A DNA stretch of 36,250 nt from positions 1-36,250 of IMG/VR virus record IMGVR_UViG_3300013126_000107; one strand, written 5' to 3'. Below, one piece after another: positions 3,190 through 15,255 of this stretch (within the stretch, counting starts at the first letter, position 1; each line of letters opens with the position of its first letter). The notes under the pieces were generated by a model that saw only the letters and a program-made list of their open reading frames with translations, made no database searches and was not told the DNA's origin. The translations under genes were made by a program, and so were the position numbers. Source of the DNA: a virus.

Positions 3190-3468
3190 CTACAGGTAGA
3201 ACGTATCCTCCGCACCCAACGAGTCGCCAGAATGCCCGTTATCGCCCTGAGCGGCCTCACAGGCGGCGGAATCAGCATTTAGGCGGGGCGGGTCCATCTC
3301 ACCGCGAAGAATCGCGATTAAAATCTCGTGGCAGCTGGGCGAAGTGGCGATATTGCGCCGCCGCCGATAGTTGTAGACGCTGTATTGACCGATGCCGGTC
3401 AACTCACCCACCAGCGAGTCAGGTATCACCCCGACGATGTGCGCGTATTGGTCAAGAACGTGCGCCAT
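3190..3468 (-). CDS. Small helix-turn-helix protein
   Basis: A 92-residue protein, the last gene of the leftward cluster. Residues about 17-41 read DSLVGELTGIGQYSVYNYRRR, the shape of a helix-turn-helix with a strongly basic recognition end, as in many short phage DNA-binding proteins. The C-terminal third is acidic and probably disordered. The start at 3468 is supported by GGGAG a few bases upstream and by a TAATG overlap with the preceding ribbon-helix-helix gene. A longer reading that begins at 3591 would run through that gene and is rejected. It could be a transcription regulator of this region; the target is unknown. Confidence 0.65.
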   Translation of the reverse strand: MAHVLDQYAHIVGVIPDSLVGELTGIGQYSVYNYRRRRNIATSPSCHEILIAILRGEMDPPRLNADSAACEAAQGDNGHSGDSLGAEDTFYL

Positions 3469-3623
3469 TACTTCACACTCCCACCAGCCGCCAGCCGGTC
3501 CTGAATTGCCAACTCGATGAAAGCAGAAATGGTCCGGTGTTCGGCCTCCGCCGCCTTCTTGATTATCGCGTGGAATTCGGGCGTAACCCAAACGCCGACC
3601 ACCTTTTTTTTCAGTTCAGACAT
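3468..3623 (-). CDS. Arc/CopG-type ribbon-helix-helix protein
   Basis: A 51-residue protein. The pattern KKKVVGVWVTPEFHAIIKKA followed by a second helix with TISAFIELAIQDRL is the ribbon-helix-helix fold: one beta strand that pairs in the dimer and contacts DNA, then two helices. Such proteins are dimeric repressors or antitoxins. GGAGGAG lies 8 bases before the ATG. It overlaps both neighbours, and is translated in a chain with them. A good candidate for binding the palindrome at 5798-5815 that overlaps the cluster promoter, although no direct evidence links them. It is not followed by a recognisable toxin. Confidence 0.75.
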   Translation of the reverse strand: MSELKKKVVGVWVTPEFHAIIKKAAEAEHRTISAFIELAIQDRLAAGGSVK

Positions 3624-3736
3624 CGATTTTGCTCCTCCATGATTCTGTGCATGATGAATTCACGCATGGTTTCGATTTCCTCATCGGTCAACTTGGGCGG
3701 CGACCCCCATATCACGCCAGATAGGCAGATTTTCAC
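3611..3736 (-). CDS. Small acidic protein, unknown function
   Basis: A 41-residue frame beginning with GTG, with GAGAGGAA upstream and a start 2 bases after the stop of the preceding gene. It overlaps the ribbon-helix-helix gene start by 13 bases. The residues form an amphipathic, charged helix (LTDEEIETMREFIMHRIMEE). I recognise no family. Gene-like spacing and ribosome site make it likely to be translated. Confidence 0.5.
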   Translation of the reverse strand: MKICLSGVIWGSPPKLTDEEIETMREFIMHRIMEEQNRCLN

Positions 3737-3738
3737 GG

Positions 3739-4050
3739 CTAGTTCCTCTCCGCAGCTGTCAAACTGGGGTGCTCCGCGCCATCATCGCGCATGGTGTCTT
3801 CCACCTGTTCCCAGGCTTGCTGAATCGCTTGATACTCAATATCGACGTATCGGTCGGCGTGTTTAGTCTTGAAGTCGGCCAGATATTCGCCGTCAACCTG
3901 AATCAAAACGCGCACCTCGCGCCCGCTCGTGCATCCGTACTCAATGCAGACCTGCATACCCTGGCGCACACCCTCGCGAACAAGGTCGCCGAACGTGCTT
4001 TGCTCCAAAACCCAGGCAAGCGGGTGCTCATCGTCCAGTTTCGCGCTCAT
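3739..4050 (-). CDS. Hypothetical protein, 103 residues
   Basis: I do not recognise this protein. It is mixed alpha/beta in appearance, with a central strand-rich stretch (REVRVLIQVDGEYLADFKTK) and a helical, acidic C-terminus. The ATG at 4050 overlaps the stop of the preceding gene (ATGA), which fixes the start; an upstream extension to 4239 runs across that gene and is rejected. No transmembrane segment or signal peptide is seen. Confidence 0.6.
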   Translation of the reverse strand: MSAKLDDEHPLAWVLEQSTFGDLVREGVRQGMQVCIEYGCTSGREVRVLIQVDGEYLADFKTKHADRYVDIEYQAIQQAWEQVEDTMRDDGAEHPSLTAAERN

Positions 4051-4208
4051 CGTCCAGCCTCCGACGCACCGAGCAGCACATTGAATCTGTTTGTTTCGTG
4101 CTGATACTTCGCAATCGCCTGATTGCCAGTAGCAGCCTGAAAAACAGCCAACACTGGCGACTGAATCAGGCCCGAAGGACTCACCGCGTACACGTTCCAG
4201 AGTTTCAT
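4047..4208 (-). CDS. Hypothetical protein, 53 residues, MK-x-W-x-VY type
   Basis: A 53-residue protein beginning MKLWNVYAVSPSG, with GGGAGAAAG just upstream. It resembles the product at 5075-5284, which begins MKTWYVYSW and also has an Ala/Gln-rich middle with a short helix where such small phage proteins have an EAIEAARE-like stretch. They may be diverged copies. Function unknown. It is coupled to the next gene by an ATGA overlap. Confidence 0.6.
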   Translation of the reverse strand: MKLWNVYAVSPSGLIQSPVLAVFQAATGNQAIAKYQHETNRFNVLLGASEAGR

Positions 4209-4219
4209 GTTCTTTCTCC

Positions 4220-4450
4220 CTAGTTTTGTTGTGCGGCAAGCGCCGCGTTGATTTTCAGACGCAACTTCGAGCACTTAAAAAGCGTCGATTCGCAGCTGGT
4301 TCGTTGTGCCTCCAATTCGGCAATTCGCTCGATGTTCAGGCGGCGGATATTGCGCTCCCAAACTGACGCTTGTTCCGCGTGCCCACTACCGACCATCGCA
4401 TCGAGCGCGGCAAACGCATGGTCTTCCATATCGAAATCGGGTTCCATCAT
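4220..4450 (-). CDS. Hypothetical protein, 76 residues, helical
   Basis: An unrecognised, mostly helical protein with an acidic start (EPDFDMED) and a coiled-coil-like middle (IRRLNIERIAELEAQRTSCE). Two ATG codons are adjacent at 4450 and 4447; the AAAGGTGG ribosome site lies so close to the first that 4447 is an equally good start. The reading upstream of 4450 has no ribosome site and is not used. Confidence 0.55.
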   Translation of the reverse strand: MMEPDFDMEDHAFAALDAMVGSGHAEQASVWERNIRRLNIERIAELEAQRTSCESTLFKCSKLRLKINAALAAQQN

Positions 4451-4491
4451 CCCACCTTTCTGCGCATTGCGCGTTGAAAACTTGACAAAGC

Positions 4492-4677
4492 CTAAATTTT
4501 GCTGAATCCACGAGTATGCCCGATGAACAGCGGCGCCGCCGACACCAGCACCCGGTCGGGATGGTCGCGAATCCAGCACTCTTCATCAAACCGCCCTTCA
4601 TGCGCCACCGTCACATCGCCTGGCGACCTGTCGTGACGCCAGTTGATGTACTCGAATTTCACCCGCGTGTAGTTCAT
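4492..4677 (-). CDS. Hypothetical protein, 61 residues
   Basis: An unrecognised protein beginning MNYTRVKFEYINW, rich in aromatic and charged residues. AAAGGGGAAG lies just upstream of the ATG at 4677, and the start overlaps the stop of an 18-codon frame. Soluble by appearance. Function unknown. Confidence 0.55.
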   Translation of the reverse strand: MNYTRVKFEYINWRHDRSPGDVTVAHEGRFDEECWIRDHPDRVLVSAAPLFIGHTRGFSKI

Positions 4678-4730
4678 GACTTCCCCTTTCCTGTGCAAAC
4701 ATCATCGCGACAAAGCACCCGGTCGCTCAT
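4674..4730 (-). CDS. Possible 18-residue leader peptide or micro-protein
   Basis: A tiny frame with two cysteines whose ATG at 4730 is preceded by GGAGAAGGAG, one of the strongest ribosome sites of the cluster, and whose stop overlaps the next start (ATGA). It may be a micro-protein or simply a translational coupler for the 61-residue gene. The evidence is the spacing and ribosome site only. Confidence 0.35.
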   Translation of the reverse strand: MSDRVLCRDDVCTGKGKS

Positions 4731-4775
4731 CGTGTCTCCTTCTCCGCGTTAGCATGCGCGGCCCGCGTGTTTATT

Positions 4776-5045
4776 TTAGATTCCTGAGAGGAGCCAGAAC
4801 AGGAACCGCTCACGAATCGCAGTGCACCCGTAATACTGACCGTCCCGCGAGTCCACGATTCCGACTTTCTCATACACGAGCCGCATCAGATTATTGATGC
4901 CGCTCTCAGACTGCGTCACGCTTCTCCCCGCGAGCTGACCGTAAAGGTGCTGGCGCAGCCTTGCGTTGTGTTGCCCGCTTAGATTCCAAACGCGCCCATC
5001 AGGGCAGAAACTCTTGATGATGATTGCGCTATTCATGCGGTCCAT
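4776..5045 (-). CDS. Hypothetical protein, 89 residues
   Basis: Residues 1-60 show a strand-rich beginning (SAIIIKSFCPDGRVWNLSG) and then a helical part ending in LMRLVYEKVGIVDSRDGQYY. I do not recognise it. The start at 5045 is set by GGGAG in the repeated leader found upstream of four cluster genes; a second in-frame ATG lies 9 bases further on at 5036. The much longer reading from 5276 lies over the neighbouring gene and is a shadow. Confidence 0.55.
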   Translation of the reverse strand: MDRMNSAIIIKSFCPDGRVWNLSGQHNARLRQHLYGQLAGRSVTQSESGINNLMRLVYEKVGIVDSRDGQYYGCTAIRERFLFWLLSGI

Positions 5046-5074
5046 CTTTTTTACTCCCTTCGGCCCGCGCGGGG

Positions 5075-5284
5075 TTAGTTGGTGTTTGTTTTCTGGCGAA
5101 CCACGCCAGCCGAGATTATACGACCAGAGGCAAAATGCTTGCCGAGAACTTCGCGGGCAGCTTCGATTGCTTCCGCACGGCTTGCTGCTTGTACCGTAGC
5201 ACCCCCGAAATTTTGCCGCTTTGCCGTCGCGATGTTGCGATATTTCCCGAAAGGCATCCATGAGTACACATACCACGTTTTCAT
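5075..5284 (-). CDS. Hypothetical protein, 69 residues, MK-x-W-x-VY type
   Basis: Begins MKTWYVYSWMPFGKYRNI and contains TVQAASRAEAIEAAREVL, a layout typical of small phage proteins with a beta hairpin followed by one helix. GGGAG in the repeated leader precedes the ATG. It ends in KTNTN, and the product at 5571-5753 ends in ETNTN, because both stop codons lie inside copies of the same repeat. Possible paralogue of the 4047-4208 product. Function unknown. Confidence 0.65.
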   Translation of the reverse strand: MKTWYVYSWMPFGKYRNIATAKRQNFGGATVQAASRAEAIEAAREVLGKHFASGRIISAGVVRQKTNTN

Positions 5285-11930: not shown

Positions 11931-13307
11931 ATGGACGAAATTCTGAAGCGAATGAAGGAAATTGTGGCGCTGGCGAAGGCCGAGGCGCGCGATTTCAATG
12001 AAGCCGAGACCAAAGAGTACGAAGAATTGCGGGCCAAGGCCGACGCCATCGAGGCGGCCGAAAAGCGTGAAGCGGACATCGCCGCGCGCGAAGTTGCCAA
12101 GCGTGACGCCGCTGGCATCGCCGCCGCCGAGGAACGCAGCAAGAAGATTCAGGAGGCGACCACGCGCGCCGGCCTTAATGTTGCGGAATTCCGCAGCCCG
12201 AAGCCTGAGTCTCGCATTGAAGTCCCGTTCGCGCACACGCGCAGCTTTACCGAGACCATCAACGGCAAGGCTCCGCATGAGCGTGCGTATGACTTCGGTA
12301 TTCGCATGTTCGCTGGACTTGGCAACGAGTACGCGATTCGCCGTTGTCAGGAACGCGGTATTGAATACCGTGGGCAGGTTGAGGGTGTGAACTCTCTTGG
12401 CGGTTTCCTCGTTCCCTCGCAGACCGACCCAGACATGATTAAGCTGGTTCTCAGCTATGGCGTGTTTGGCCGGTACGCTCGCCGTGTCGCGATGGCTAGC
12501 GACAGCATTCACCGCAACGCGCTGGGTTCTGAAGTTGACCTGTATCCGGTTGGCGAAGCGCAGGCCGGTACGGGTTCTCAGAGCACCTTCGACAACACCA
12601 CGCTGACCGCGAAGGATTGGATGGGCCTAGCTGCGATTTCCAAGCAGTTGAACGACGACAGCATCATCTCAATGGCTGATGAGCTTGCGGAACAGTTTGC
12701 GCGCGCGAAGGCCCGCCGACAGGACCAGGCTGGGTTTATCGGTGACGGTACCAGCACCTACCACGGAATCCGTGGTGTGCGCACGAAGCTTGCCGCCGAC
12801 GGCACAGCCGGTGTCGCGACCGCCGCTTCTGGCACGCACACGAACTGGGGGCTTATCACGCTTGCGAAGTTCTCCGAGACGTTGGGCAAGCTGCCCGACT
12901 TCGAGGGCGGATTGCAGCCGGTGTGGTTCACCTCTAAGCCGTTCTGGAGCACGGTCATGGAGCCGCTTGCGCTTGCCGCTGGTGGCAACACGGTTGAGAA
13001 CATTCAGAACGGTGCGCCGCGCAAGATGTTCCTCGGCTACCCGGTCGAGACGACCGAAGTGATGCCGAAGACCGCCACTACCGCCGAAGTGGTTTGCTTG
13101 TTTGGCGACCTTCGCCGCGCGGCCGACCTTGGCATTCGCAACGCCGACACCTTCGAAGCGTCGATGGATGCGACGATTGCCGGCGTTTCGATGTTCGAGA
13201 CCAATCAGATTGGCGTCCGGTACACCACGCGCTTCGGCATCAACGTGCACAGCGTTGGCGACGCGACGAACGCGGGTCCGGTTGTCGGCCTGAAGACGGC
13301 CTCCTAA
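11931..13307 (+). CDS. Major capsid protein, HK97 fold
   Basis: A 458-residue protein. Residues 1 to about 85 form a charged coiled coil, the scaffolding delta domain that the upstream protease removes; the mature shell protein follows. Family signs are SLGGFLVPSQTDPDMIKL, the E-loop region around YPVGEAQAGTG, DDSIISMADELAEQFA along the spine helix, and GVRYTTRFGINVHS near the end. It forms the icosahedral shell. AAAGGAG is placed 7 bases before the ATG. The cleavage site cannot be fixed from sequence alone; it is likely between residues 85 and 130. Confidence 0.93.
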   Translation: MDEILKRMKEIVALAKAEARDFNEAETKEYEELRAKADAIEAAEKREADIAAREVAKRDAAGIAAAEERSKKIQEATTRAGLNVAEFRSPKPESRIEVPFAHTRSFTETINGKAPHERAYDFGIRMFAGLGNEYAIRRCQERGIEYRGQVEGVNSLGGFLVPSQTDPDMIKLVLSYGVFGRYARRVAMASDSIHRNALGSEVDLYPVGEAQAGTGSQSTFDNTTLTAKDWMGLAAISKQLNDDSIISMADELAEQFARAKARRQDQAGFIGDGTSTYHGIRGVRTKLAADGTAGVATAASGTHTNWGLITLAKFSETLGKLPDFEGGLQPVWFTSKPFWSTVMEPLALAAGGNTVENIQNGAPRKMFLGYPVETTEVMPKTATTAEVVCLFGDLRRAADLGIRNADTFEASMDATIAGVSMFETNQIGVRYTTRFGINVHSVGDATNAGPVVGLKTAS

Positions 13308-13334: not shown

Positions 13335-13766
13335 ATGATTCACTCTCAGAACCAGAAAGTCGGGGTTGTAATCGCCCCGGTTTCTATTGGTACGACCGAA
13401 GTTACCGGCACCATCGACACTCTTGACGCTGATTACGTCACGATTGATACGGTGCTGGCGACTGGCGCGACGACCGTTACGCTTGAGATTGCCGTTGCTT
13501 ATGGCGACACGACTTCGGCTTTCACGAACATTCCGGTTTTCACGTCTGGCACGGCTACCGGCAACTTCTCCGCGCCGAACGCTGCGGCAACCCCGCAGAT
13601 TGTTCGTATCGGTATCGACAAGCGGAACTACCCGTACCGGTATTTCCGTGTCGGCGTGACGAATTCGAGCGCACGAATCACCGCCGTTAAAGCCGACCTG
13701 TCGCGCCAGAGCAATGGCGTGACAGACGCGACATCGGCTGGCGCTGCGGCGCTGGTACTCGGCTAA
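13335..13766 (+). CDS. Capsid-associated beta protein, likely decoration
   Basis: A 143-residue Thr/Ala/Val-rich protein with regular beta strands (VTGTIDTLDADYVTIDTVLA) and no charged helices. It follows the capsid gene with its own AAAGGAG ribosome site, the place where HK97-type phages often encode head decoration or stabilising proteins. The end of the structure has KRNYPYRYFRVGVTNSSARI, a jelly-roll-like run. I recognise no named family, so the decoration role rests on position and composition. Confidence 0.55.
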   Translation: MIHSQNQKVGVVIAPVSIGTTEVTGTIDTLDADYVTIDTVLATGATTVTLEIAVAYGDTTSAFTNIPVFTSGTATGNFSAPNAAATPQIVRIGIDKRNYPYRYFRVGVTNSSARITAVKADLSRQSNGVTDATSAGAAALVLG

Positions 13767-13772
13767 CCCCTA

Positions 13773-13787
13773 CCCCGCCTAGCGGGG
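13773..13787 (+). terminator. Hairpin after the capsid operon segment
   Basis: CCCCGC-CTA-GCGGGG right after the 13335-13766 gene, without a T run. It could be a partial terminator that keeps capsid expression above that of downstream genes, or an RNA-stabilising 3' hairpin. Confidence 0.45.
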
Positions 13788-13867
13788 GCGGGTGTCGAAA
13801 GGCATCCGTCCCCGCGCGGCGGACACAGGGAAACAATTAAACAGGCAGGAAAGGTAGGGTAAAGATT

Positions 13868-15073
13868 ATGGCGAATGAGTATACAAACATCGACGAGGGG
13901 CGCATGGTGAAGCTGAACCTTGGCGCGGGTCCAGTACCGATTGAAGGGTACACAAATCTTGACCGGAAAACCGGGCAGGAAGTCTACCCGCTTGCCATGG
14001 AAGATGGCACGGTAGACGAAATCCGCGCGAGCCATGTGCTTGAACATTTCAGCCATCGCGACGTTGGAAAGGTGCTAGAAAATTGGGTTGCCAAGCTGCG
14101 CCCCGGCGGCGTTTTGAAGTTGGCGGTCCCCGACTTCCGCAAGTGCGCGAAGATGTATTTATCGAACGTGCCGGAGCCGCACTTGCAGGGATACATTATG
14201 GGTGGACATTCAGACTCTGATGACCACCATGGCGCTATATTTGACCGCGACACGTTGGAGGAGGCGTTTGCTAACCTTGGCTTGTTCAATATAACCACAT
14301 GGGAGAGTGAGATTGACGATTGCGCCAAGCTGCCCATCTCGCTGAATATTCGCGGAACAAAGATGCACACCGGCGCGGTGGATTTCAGTGGCACGCATAT
14401 GTTGCTCGCCGCGGCGCGGTTCGGCCCGACGATGCACTTCAATTGCACCATGCCCGTAATTCATCAATTAGGCATCCGGTATAACAGCCATTCTTCTTGC
14501 TTCTGGTTTGAGGCGCTATCGAATCTGATTGAAAACGCGCTGCAAGACCCGACATGCAAGTACATTCTGACCGCTGACTACGATTCAATGTTTAGCGTTG
14601 CTGATGTTGTTGAGCTTCACAGGTTGGCGATTACCTATCCTGAAGCGAAGGCTATCGTGCCGGTGCAATCCAAGCGCCAGTGCGAGACCGCACTTTTCAC
14701 TGTTGGCGATGGGAATGGTGGAATCAAACGCCAGATGTACGCTACCGACTTTGCGCGGAATCTCACGCAGATTACCACAGGGCACTTCGGCTTGACGCTT
14801 ATCAACGCCGATTGCTTGCGCGCACTCCCGCGCCCGTGGATGCAGCCAACCCCGAACGCTGAGGGGCTTTGGGACCGTGGGCAGACAGACGCCGACATAT
14901 CGTTCTGGAAGAACTGGCACAAGGCTGGGCACAAGGTATTCCTTGCGAACAACGTGCGCATCGGCCATATGCAGGAATTGGTGACGTGGCCCGGTCCAGA
15001 CTTCAGGCCGATTCACCAGACGTTGAACGAGTATCAGCGCGACGGAATGCCGCCGGGGTGTGTAGCCGTATGA
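13868..15073 (+). CDS. Methyltransferase-glycosyltransferase fusion protein
   Basis: A 401-residue two-domain enzyme. Residues 1 to about 175 are a class I SAM-dependent methyltransferase: LNLGAGP (17-23), ASHVLEHF (54-61), LRPGGVLKLAVPDF (77-90). Residues about 190-395 look like a GT-A glycosyltransferase of the GT2 kind: YILTADYDSMF with a D-x-D metal site (237-239), then DADISFWKNWHKAGHKVF and VRIGHM, whose His usually ligates the metal. It sits between the capsid and connector genes, with ATGA coupling to the next gene, so its substrate may be the virion itself. A role in cell-surface or DNA modification is an alternative. The GT part could also be a degenerate sugar-nucleotide fold; the metal residues argue for activity. 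Confidence 0.78.
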   Translation: MANEYTNIDEGRMVKLNLGAGPVPIEGYTNLDRKTGQEVYPLAMEDGTVDEIRASHVLEHFSHRDVGKVLENWVAKLRPGGVLKLAVPDFRKCAKMYLSNVPEPHLQGYIMGGHSDSDDHHGAIFDRDTLEEAFANLGLFNITTWESEIDDCAKLPISLNIRGTKMHTGAVDFSGTHMLLAAARFGPTMHFNCTMPVIHQLGIRYNSHSSCFWFEALSNLIENALQDPTCKYILTADYDSMFSVADVVELHRLAITYPEAKAIVPVQSKRQCETALFTVGDGNGGIKRQMYATDFARNLTQITTGHFGLTLINADCLRALPRPWMQPTPNAEGLWDRGQTDADISFWKNWHKAGHKVFLANNVRIGHMQELVTWPGPDFRPIHQTLNEYQRDGMPPGCVAV

Positions 15074-15255
15074 ACATCAAATTCAACTGCAACATCGGGC
15101 GCTTTACTAAAGACGAAGTAATCGACCTGCCTGTAGGGCTTGCATGCGCGTATCTCGACAGGCGCGTAGCGGTGCGCGTTGACATGGATGGGCGCGAGAC
15201 GGCCAGCCGTGTGCATTCACCTGAAAAGACAAAGCGCGGAGGGCGCGAGCGATGA
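15070..15255 (+). CDS. Small protein of connector region, unknown
   Basis: A 61-residue basic protein (MNIKFNCNIGRFTKDEVIDL start), coupled on both sides by ATGA overlaps with the fusion enzyme gene and the connector gene. The front half is probably beta, the tail RVHSPEKTKRGGRER is basic and flexible. Small proteins of this kind are frequent before head-tail connector genes. No function can be assigned. Confidence 0.6.
   Translation: MNIKFNCNIGRFTKDEVIDLPVGLACAYLDRRVAVRVDMDGRETASRVHSPEKTKRGGRER

Follow-up and report, generated by a model that had tools for sequence, protein, structure and literature searches.

What does a protein that joins a methyltransferase to a glycosyltransferase do among the head genes of a phage? 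The question is raised by a 36,250-base stretch of DNA from an uncultured virus (the window), in which terminase, portal, protease, HK97-type capsid, connector and tape measure genes follow one another in a siphovirus-like order. A sequence-only reading, made without database searches, had proposed that one 401-residue protein encoded in this late operon carries both enzymes and that it may coat the virion with a methylated sugar. We followed up this proposal with profile searches, structure prediction and comparative genomics.

One Protein, Two Predicted Domains

The gene, which we call MT-GT, encodes a class I SAM methyltransferase (MT) at the N terminus followed by a GT-A glycosyltransferase (GT), both predicted:

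13868..15073, plus strand: MT-GT fusion gene, 401 aa, a single ORF; AF2 model and alignment of relatives
13907..14401, plus strand: putative class I SAM methyltransferase domain, residues 14-178 (LNLGAG, SHVLEHF, LRPGG, VPDF); PF13489, phrog_6636, Foldseek
14402..15055, plus strand: putative GT-A glycosyltransferase domain, residues 179-396; phrog_1574; structure matches to STIV A197 and LH3
14576..14584, plus strand: D-x-D metal/nucleotide-sugar motif, D237-Y-D239; both Asp invariant in 77/77 fusions
14966..14968, plus strand: H367, C-terminal candidate GT-A metal-ligand His; G366-H367 invariant in 77 fusions

That both domains belong to one protein was confirmed by the ORF itself, by Pfam and PHROG matches, by an AF2 model and by a second copy, 89% identical, which occupies a matching position among matching neighbors in another IMG/VR contig (L002). 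Comparison of the two copies gave a dN of 0.083 and a dS of 0.967 (dN/dS ~0.085), values that read as strong purifying selection. A single-sequence AF2 model (pLDDT 35) was discarded, and the model used here was instead built on a deep alignment of 76 full-length relatives (pLDDT 93.2, pTM 0.86).

Residues 1-180 match the Pfam family Methyltransf_23 (PF13489) with 28.4 bits against a cut-off of 27, the N-terminal half matches the PHROG methyltransferase phrog_6636 (E 6e-8), and the Foldseek matches of the AF2 model include class I methyltransferases. The motif I described earlier as an intact LNLGAGP keeps its G-x-G across the family (G19 in 76/77 fusions, G21 in 72/77), but its final residue, P22, is variable. 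D119, H121, D151 and N160 are invariant in all 77 sequences and lie outside the stretch used as our search pattern; the invariance of RASHVLEHF, an ascertainment artefact of that pattern, was excluded from the evidence. By family score and G-x-G motif, we classify this half as a predicted class I SAM methyltransferase; that it methylates a sugar hydroxyl is inferred.

The C-terminal half matches phrog_1574 (E 2e-5), whose tested cyanophage members are annotated as glycosyltransferases and also match PHROG glycosyltransferases. No Pfam glycosyltransferase family matched the window protein, and in a relative, L134, the match to Glycos_transf_2 is weak (E 0.003). Had this half folded as something other than GT-A, the proposal would have been refuted; a fold search instead returned GT-A enzymes. 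Residues 174-370 of the model align with STIV A197 (Z 19.1, rmsd 2.0, 159 residues), followed by LH3 (Z 18.5), Mimivirus R699 (Z 17.7) and COLGALT1 (Z 15.2), with further matches to B4GALNT1, Mnn9 and GT2 enzymes such as SpsA; many GT-A enzymes score Z > 14. The VIA-align rows all span the GT half and are uninformative on the MT half. W213, D237, D239, R270, G308, D343, W347, G366 and H367 show no variation across the 77 sequences, so the D-x-D and closing His picked out earlier both stand, the His as a candidate metal ligand. On the modeled fold and the D-x-D motif, the GT half meets the description of a GT-A enzyme, without assignment to a named GT family. Matches of this half to T4-like nrdB were rejected as chance (E > 1).

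A Recurring Fusion Next to a Small Head Gene

The distribution of MT-GT was surveyed in IMG/VR with a DNA pattern drawn from MT only (nine residues, RASHVLEHF), which found at least 119 loci. Among the matches listed, 98 of these 119 encode MT then GT in a single ORF, a count that excludes L002, the window and L101 (a doubtful reversed match only); several MT-only loci end at contig ends. Identity between the window protein and the aligned fusions is 30-56%, L002 being the exception. Close-relative scans with the window protein gave no match in IMG/VR or the genomes, and loose alignment patterns gave one distant relative among the matches listed. No full-length copy was matched in 50,697 phage records, which gave only MT-domain and chance matches. 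No sequence relative was found in the PDB by phmmer and profile searches, and the two-domain protein as a whole had no viral or PDB match among the matches listed. We take MT-GT, at the level of sequence, to be a recurring family and not a one-off.

As had been stated, MT-GT lies between the capsid gene, which ends at 13307, and the connector gene, which starts at 15252. Its immediate upstream neighbor is a small gene that we call DEC:

11931..13307, plus strand: major capsid protein (HK97 fold family, Phage_capsid)
13335..13766, plus strand: DEC, a 143-aa Thr/Ser-rich protein, candidate decoration protein and candidate acceptor, from its position and its linkage to MT-GT or GT

The Thr/Ser content of DEC is 22%. 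Its relatives form phrog_5707, of unknown function; it matched no solved structure, and a DEC relative found no match in the phage collection. The term decoration protein is based on nothing more than its position, size and composition and remains a candidate description.

We propose that MT-GT, as part of the late (head) operon, encodes a soluble enzyme that works on a glycan in two steps. The GT-A domain, holding a metal-bound nucleotide sugar through D237, D239 and H367, would add a sugar to a capsid-surface protein, the favored acceptor being DEC; the MT domain would afterwards O-methylate that sugar, and the outcome would be a capped, methylated sugar at many sites on the head surface. 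We give a probability of roughly 0.72 to the reading that MT-GT attaches a methylated sugar to the surface of the capsid, with DEC as the likeliest acceptor and with activity, substrate and sugar all inferred. There are no biochemical or mass data behind the enzyme activity, the part of DEC as acceptor and decoration protein or the methyl group on the sugar, and any benefit, such as shielding, adhesion or stability, is likewise inferred. Because no sugar-nucleotide gene was recognized in the window, the donor would be host-derived.

Decoration of the head surface is probable because dozens of uncultured phages carry the fusion at an equivalent place. Profiles built from the genes of the window found the order TerL-portal-protease-capsid-DEC-MTGT across the family: DEC lies within 2.5 kb upstream of MT-GT in 61 of the 66 loci with >2.5 kb of upstream sequence. 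Linkage of a GT gene to structural genes is a criterion for virion glycosylation, and it is met here. The link was also approached from the other side, by a DEC-only search of IMG/VR with a six-member DEC alignment, in which a locus counted as testable if 2 kb or more lay downstream. All 17 newly found loci were positive for MT-GT or GT. The DEC-found loci are not fully independent, since some nearly duplicate one another and MT-GT loci were the source of the DEC seeds, and the linkage of MT-GT could partly reflect shared lineage with a conserved gene order.

Might the virion be glycosylated on its major capsid protein or a tail protein, with the link to DEC no more than an inherited gene block? 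The capsid gene is also close by, in 53 of the 58 loci with 3.5 kb upstream, and mycobacteriophage glycans are found on capsid and tail tube (PMC11600133, PMC12619734). Against such an acceptor, every testable locus in the DEC-only search (26/26) has either MT-GT (25) or GT alone (1, L309), and three phages that have related capsid genes and no DEC have neither MT nor GT at the position. Moreover, GT divergence follows that of DEC (r 0.68) somewhat better than that of the capsid (r 0.58; 95% interval of the difference, 0.02-0.19). We therefore regard a capsid or tail acceptor as unlikely, without discarding it. DEC is favored as the acceptor because it is adjacent, near-obligate and rich in Thr/Ser, and because of the correlation with GT divergence.

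Sequences Flanking MT-GT

The features on either side of the fusion gene may bear on how it is expressed:

13767..13867, plus strand: intergenic RNA hairpin, DEC to MT-GT (inner stem 13782-13796 / 13801-13815); -53.3 kcal/mol, z -5.1
15070..15255, plus strand: 61-aa ORF; ATGA overlaps with the MT-GT stop and the connector start; present in L002
15252..16076, plus strand: head-tail connector/adaptor; phrog_442

The hairpin occupies the 101-nt gap upstream of MT-GT and has no T-tract. Its pair 13790/13807 shows a compensatory G-C to A-U change in L002, and of the 35 homologous gaps measuring 40-220 nt, 24 have structure with z < -2; Rfam has no family for the region. By inference, the hairpin may set the level of the enzyme below that of the head proteins. 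Translational coupling of MT-GT to the connector, asserted in the sequence-only reading, needs qualification: an ATGA chain is indeed present, but the coupling is indirect, running only through the 61-aa ORF. We had also considered MT-GT as a stand-alone moron with its own promoter, an idea that was dropped because the gaps around it contain no sigma-70 promoter and no T-tailed terminator.

Other Head Modules and Varied Glycan Genes

Is the association confined to one type of head? In L094, terminase (phrog_2), portal (phrog_156), capsid (phrog_9953) and a 167-aa protein precede MT-GT; in L215, the preceding genes are portal (phrog_21), capsid-protease (phrog_4523) and phrog_122 head decoration. 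Judged by these families, two head modules non-homologous to that of the window have MT-GT at the equivalent slot. The specificity of GT for DEC would not be simple, because the acceptor in these two modules would be another family.

Relatives also carry further glycan genes at this slot. Between DEC and MT-GT, L096 (4394-6402) has gmd, for GDP-mannose 4,6-dehydratase (E 1e-162, above the NCBIfam cut-off), and fcl, for GDP-L-fucose synthase (E 3e-149, just under its own), and relatives of one or both come after DEC in L144:1390-2679, L137:2077-3378 and L159:1804-2727. Genes of the sulfotransferase family occur between DEC and MT-GT in three loci (L140:2511-3209, L176:8217-8858 and L124:2899-3633), suggesting, from gene content, sulfated virion glycans. 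L208 has an FkbM methyltransferase in this interval, and L116 and L162 have homologues; in L138 and L193 the interval holds another GT, from the same family as the first.

The fusion itself is variable. Long variants of ~600-640 aa occur in L094, L114, L150, L187, L201 and L121, and in the L094 protein (3317-5182) an FkbM methyltransferase domain is inserted between MT and GT. A Methyltransf_9/23 domain is added before MT-GT in L134 and replaces MT before GT in L219; MT and GT are separate adjacent ORFs in L122 and L156. GT is the constant part, around which methyl groups, sulfate groups and sugar donors are predicted to vary. A broader reading is that a portable virion-glycan cassette centered on MT-GT settled behind the head decoration gene in at least three unrelated head modules, its sugar chemistry varying between phages in fucose donor genes, in sulfation and in whether one methyltransferase or two are present, and that many uncultured phages thus have lineage-specific methyl-capped head coats; on this we would give about even odds.

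These variants bear on whether the methyl group goes to the sugar that GT adds. MT could instead act on a protein or on a free nucleotide sugar, the fusion merely co-localizing two virion modifications: a methyltransferase fold alone does not reveal its substrate, and L309, L220 and L218 keep GT without a recognizable MT. However, various methyltransferase families (FkbM, Methyltransf_9) precede GT, as expected for varied sugar methylation, and in the chlorovirus protein PBCV-1 A064R, domain D3 methylates the sugar added by D2 (PMC9614988). A separate target for MT is accordingly quite improbable in our view.

No Copies Found in Cellular Sugar Loci

The decoration proposal would also have been undermined by the same fusion outside late operons. 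None was found outside head operons. Of the best 80 loci from a search of 84,980 species of bacteria and archaea, 11 carry GT. DEC lies upstream in 10 of these 11, in 9 of them together with the capsid gene, while L214 begins inside DEC; the eleventh is L215, with its other head module. The GT-bearing loci look like phage contigs or prophages and not cellular genes, and no cellular copy outside phage head loci was found among the genome matches examined. Bacterial loci L221-L289 have only the MT domain by profiles and were not counted as fusions. As a separate observation, a related MT domain forms the C terminus of an annotated glycosyltransferase of >1,200 aa on an Azospirillum lipoferum plasmid (L090:1-3663).

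An enzyme of this kind could in principle modify a host surface glycan, such as O-antigen or teichoic acid, like the serotype-conversion genes of temperate phages. The sugar genes at the slot would fit this equally, and Azospirillum plasmid loci with sugar genes have related MT domains and an MT-plus-GT protein. Yet MT-GT stands in the head operon across distant phages with different head modules, and no cellular copy was found within a surface-polysaccharide locus, which makes a host target very unlikely. Characterized T4 DNA glycosyltransferases have GT-B folds, whereas MT-GT has a predicted GT-A fold. Given also its place in the head operon and the absence of any recognized base-hypermodification gene among the scanned window genes, glycosylation or methylation of phage DNA or hypermodified bases can hardly be entertained, even though phage glycosyltransferases often act on DNA (PMC12619734).

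Virion decoration from the late operon, as first proposed for MT-GT, is in contrast supported by comparative genomics and structure, through the linkage to head genes, the two non-homologous head modules, the sugar and sulfotransferase genes in relatives and the lack of cellular copies outside phage head loci; its chemistry is inferred.

Relation to Known Systems

To our knowledge, few phages have been shown to glycosylate their virions, and the enzyme and its acceptor are rarely both known. In the family described here, an enzyme and its probable acceptor are encoded by neighboring genes in scores of environmental phages, and DEC plus MT-GT could serve as a marker for glycan-coated phages in metagenomes. 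If our reading is right, these phages have methylated head coats, which in relatives are fucosylated or sulfated.

The phrog_1574 glycosyltransferases of cyanophages and other phages, such as Synechococcus phage Sf-FS3 and S-TIM5, are sequence relatives of the GT domain and share its D-x-D, PW and GH motifs but are single-domain proteins, and none of 80 loci with single GTs of this type has DEC, a capsid gene or an MT of the MT-GT type nearby. Two of their loci deserve mention in their own right. In cyanophage Sf-FS3 (L004:2458-4285), an annotated prolyl 4-hydroxylase stands shortly before the phrog_1574 glycosyltransferase, near baseplate genes, and the pair might carry out hydroxylation-dependent glycosylation. 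In L007:963-3810, two tandem phrog_1574-type GTs are followed by enzyme-like genes, with a repetitive surface-like protein upstream. The closest solved folds of the GT domain are STIV A197 and the collagen glycosyltransferases LH3 and COLGALT1; identity to these is only 10-16%, the fold alone is common, and no shared substrate has been shown.

Among phages, a close parallel in gene content comes from mycobacteriophages, where GTs encoded next to an O-methyltransferase modify capsid and tail tube proteins (PMC11600133, PMC12619734). In cluster O phages, the O-methyltransferase gene lies upstream of three GT genes in tandem, which reportedly act on the capsid and the tail tube (PMC11600133, after Freeman et al. 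2023). Unlike MT-GT, these are separate genes, with no fusion linked to a DEC-type gene.

The view that known phage virion glycosylation uses separate enzymes thus holds for the described phages that we found, but among viruses more widely it meets an exception in the chlorovirus PBCV-1, whose soluble A064R protein is a GT-GT-MT fusion in which MT methylates the rhamnose added by the second GT on the capsid glycan (PMC9614988). Like MT-GT, A064R (with A061L) has GT-A and SAM methyltransferase domains in a single viral protein; A064R makes the methylated terminus of a glycan that the major capsid protein carries (PMC9614988). It differs in belonging to a eukaryotic algal virus, in having two GTs first and MT last, in acting on an N-glycan of the major capsid protein and in being expressed early, whereas MT-GT has MT first, one GT and a position within the head operon, next to the gene of a small head protein. 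By analogy, MT-GT would work like A064R and like the mycobacteriophage enzymes, without being filed as a member of the A064R family, the domain order being MT-GT against GT-GT-MT. Virion glycosylation itself is already known; what sets this family apart is the fused MT-GT order, the place beside DEC and the spread in uncultured phages.
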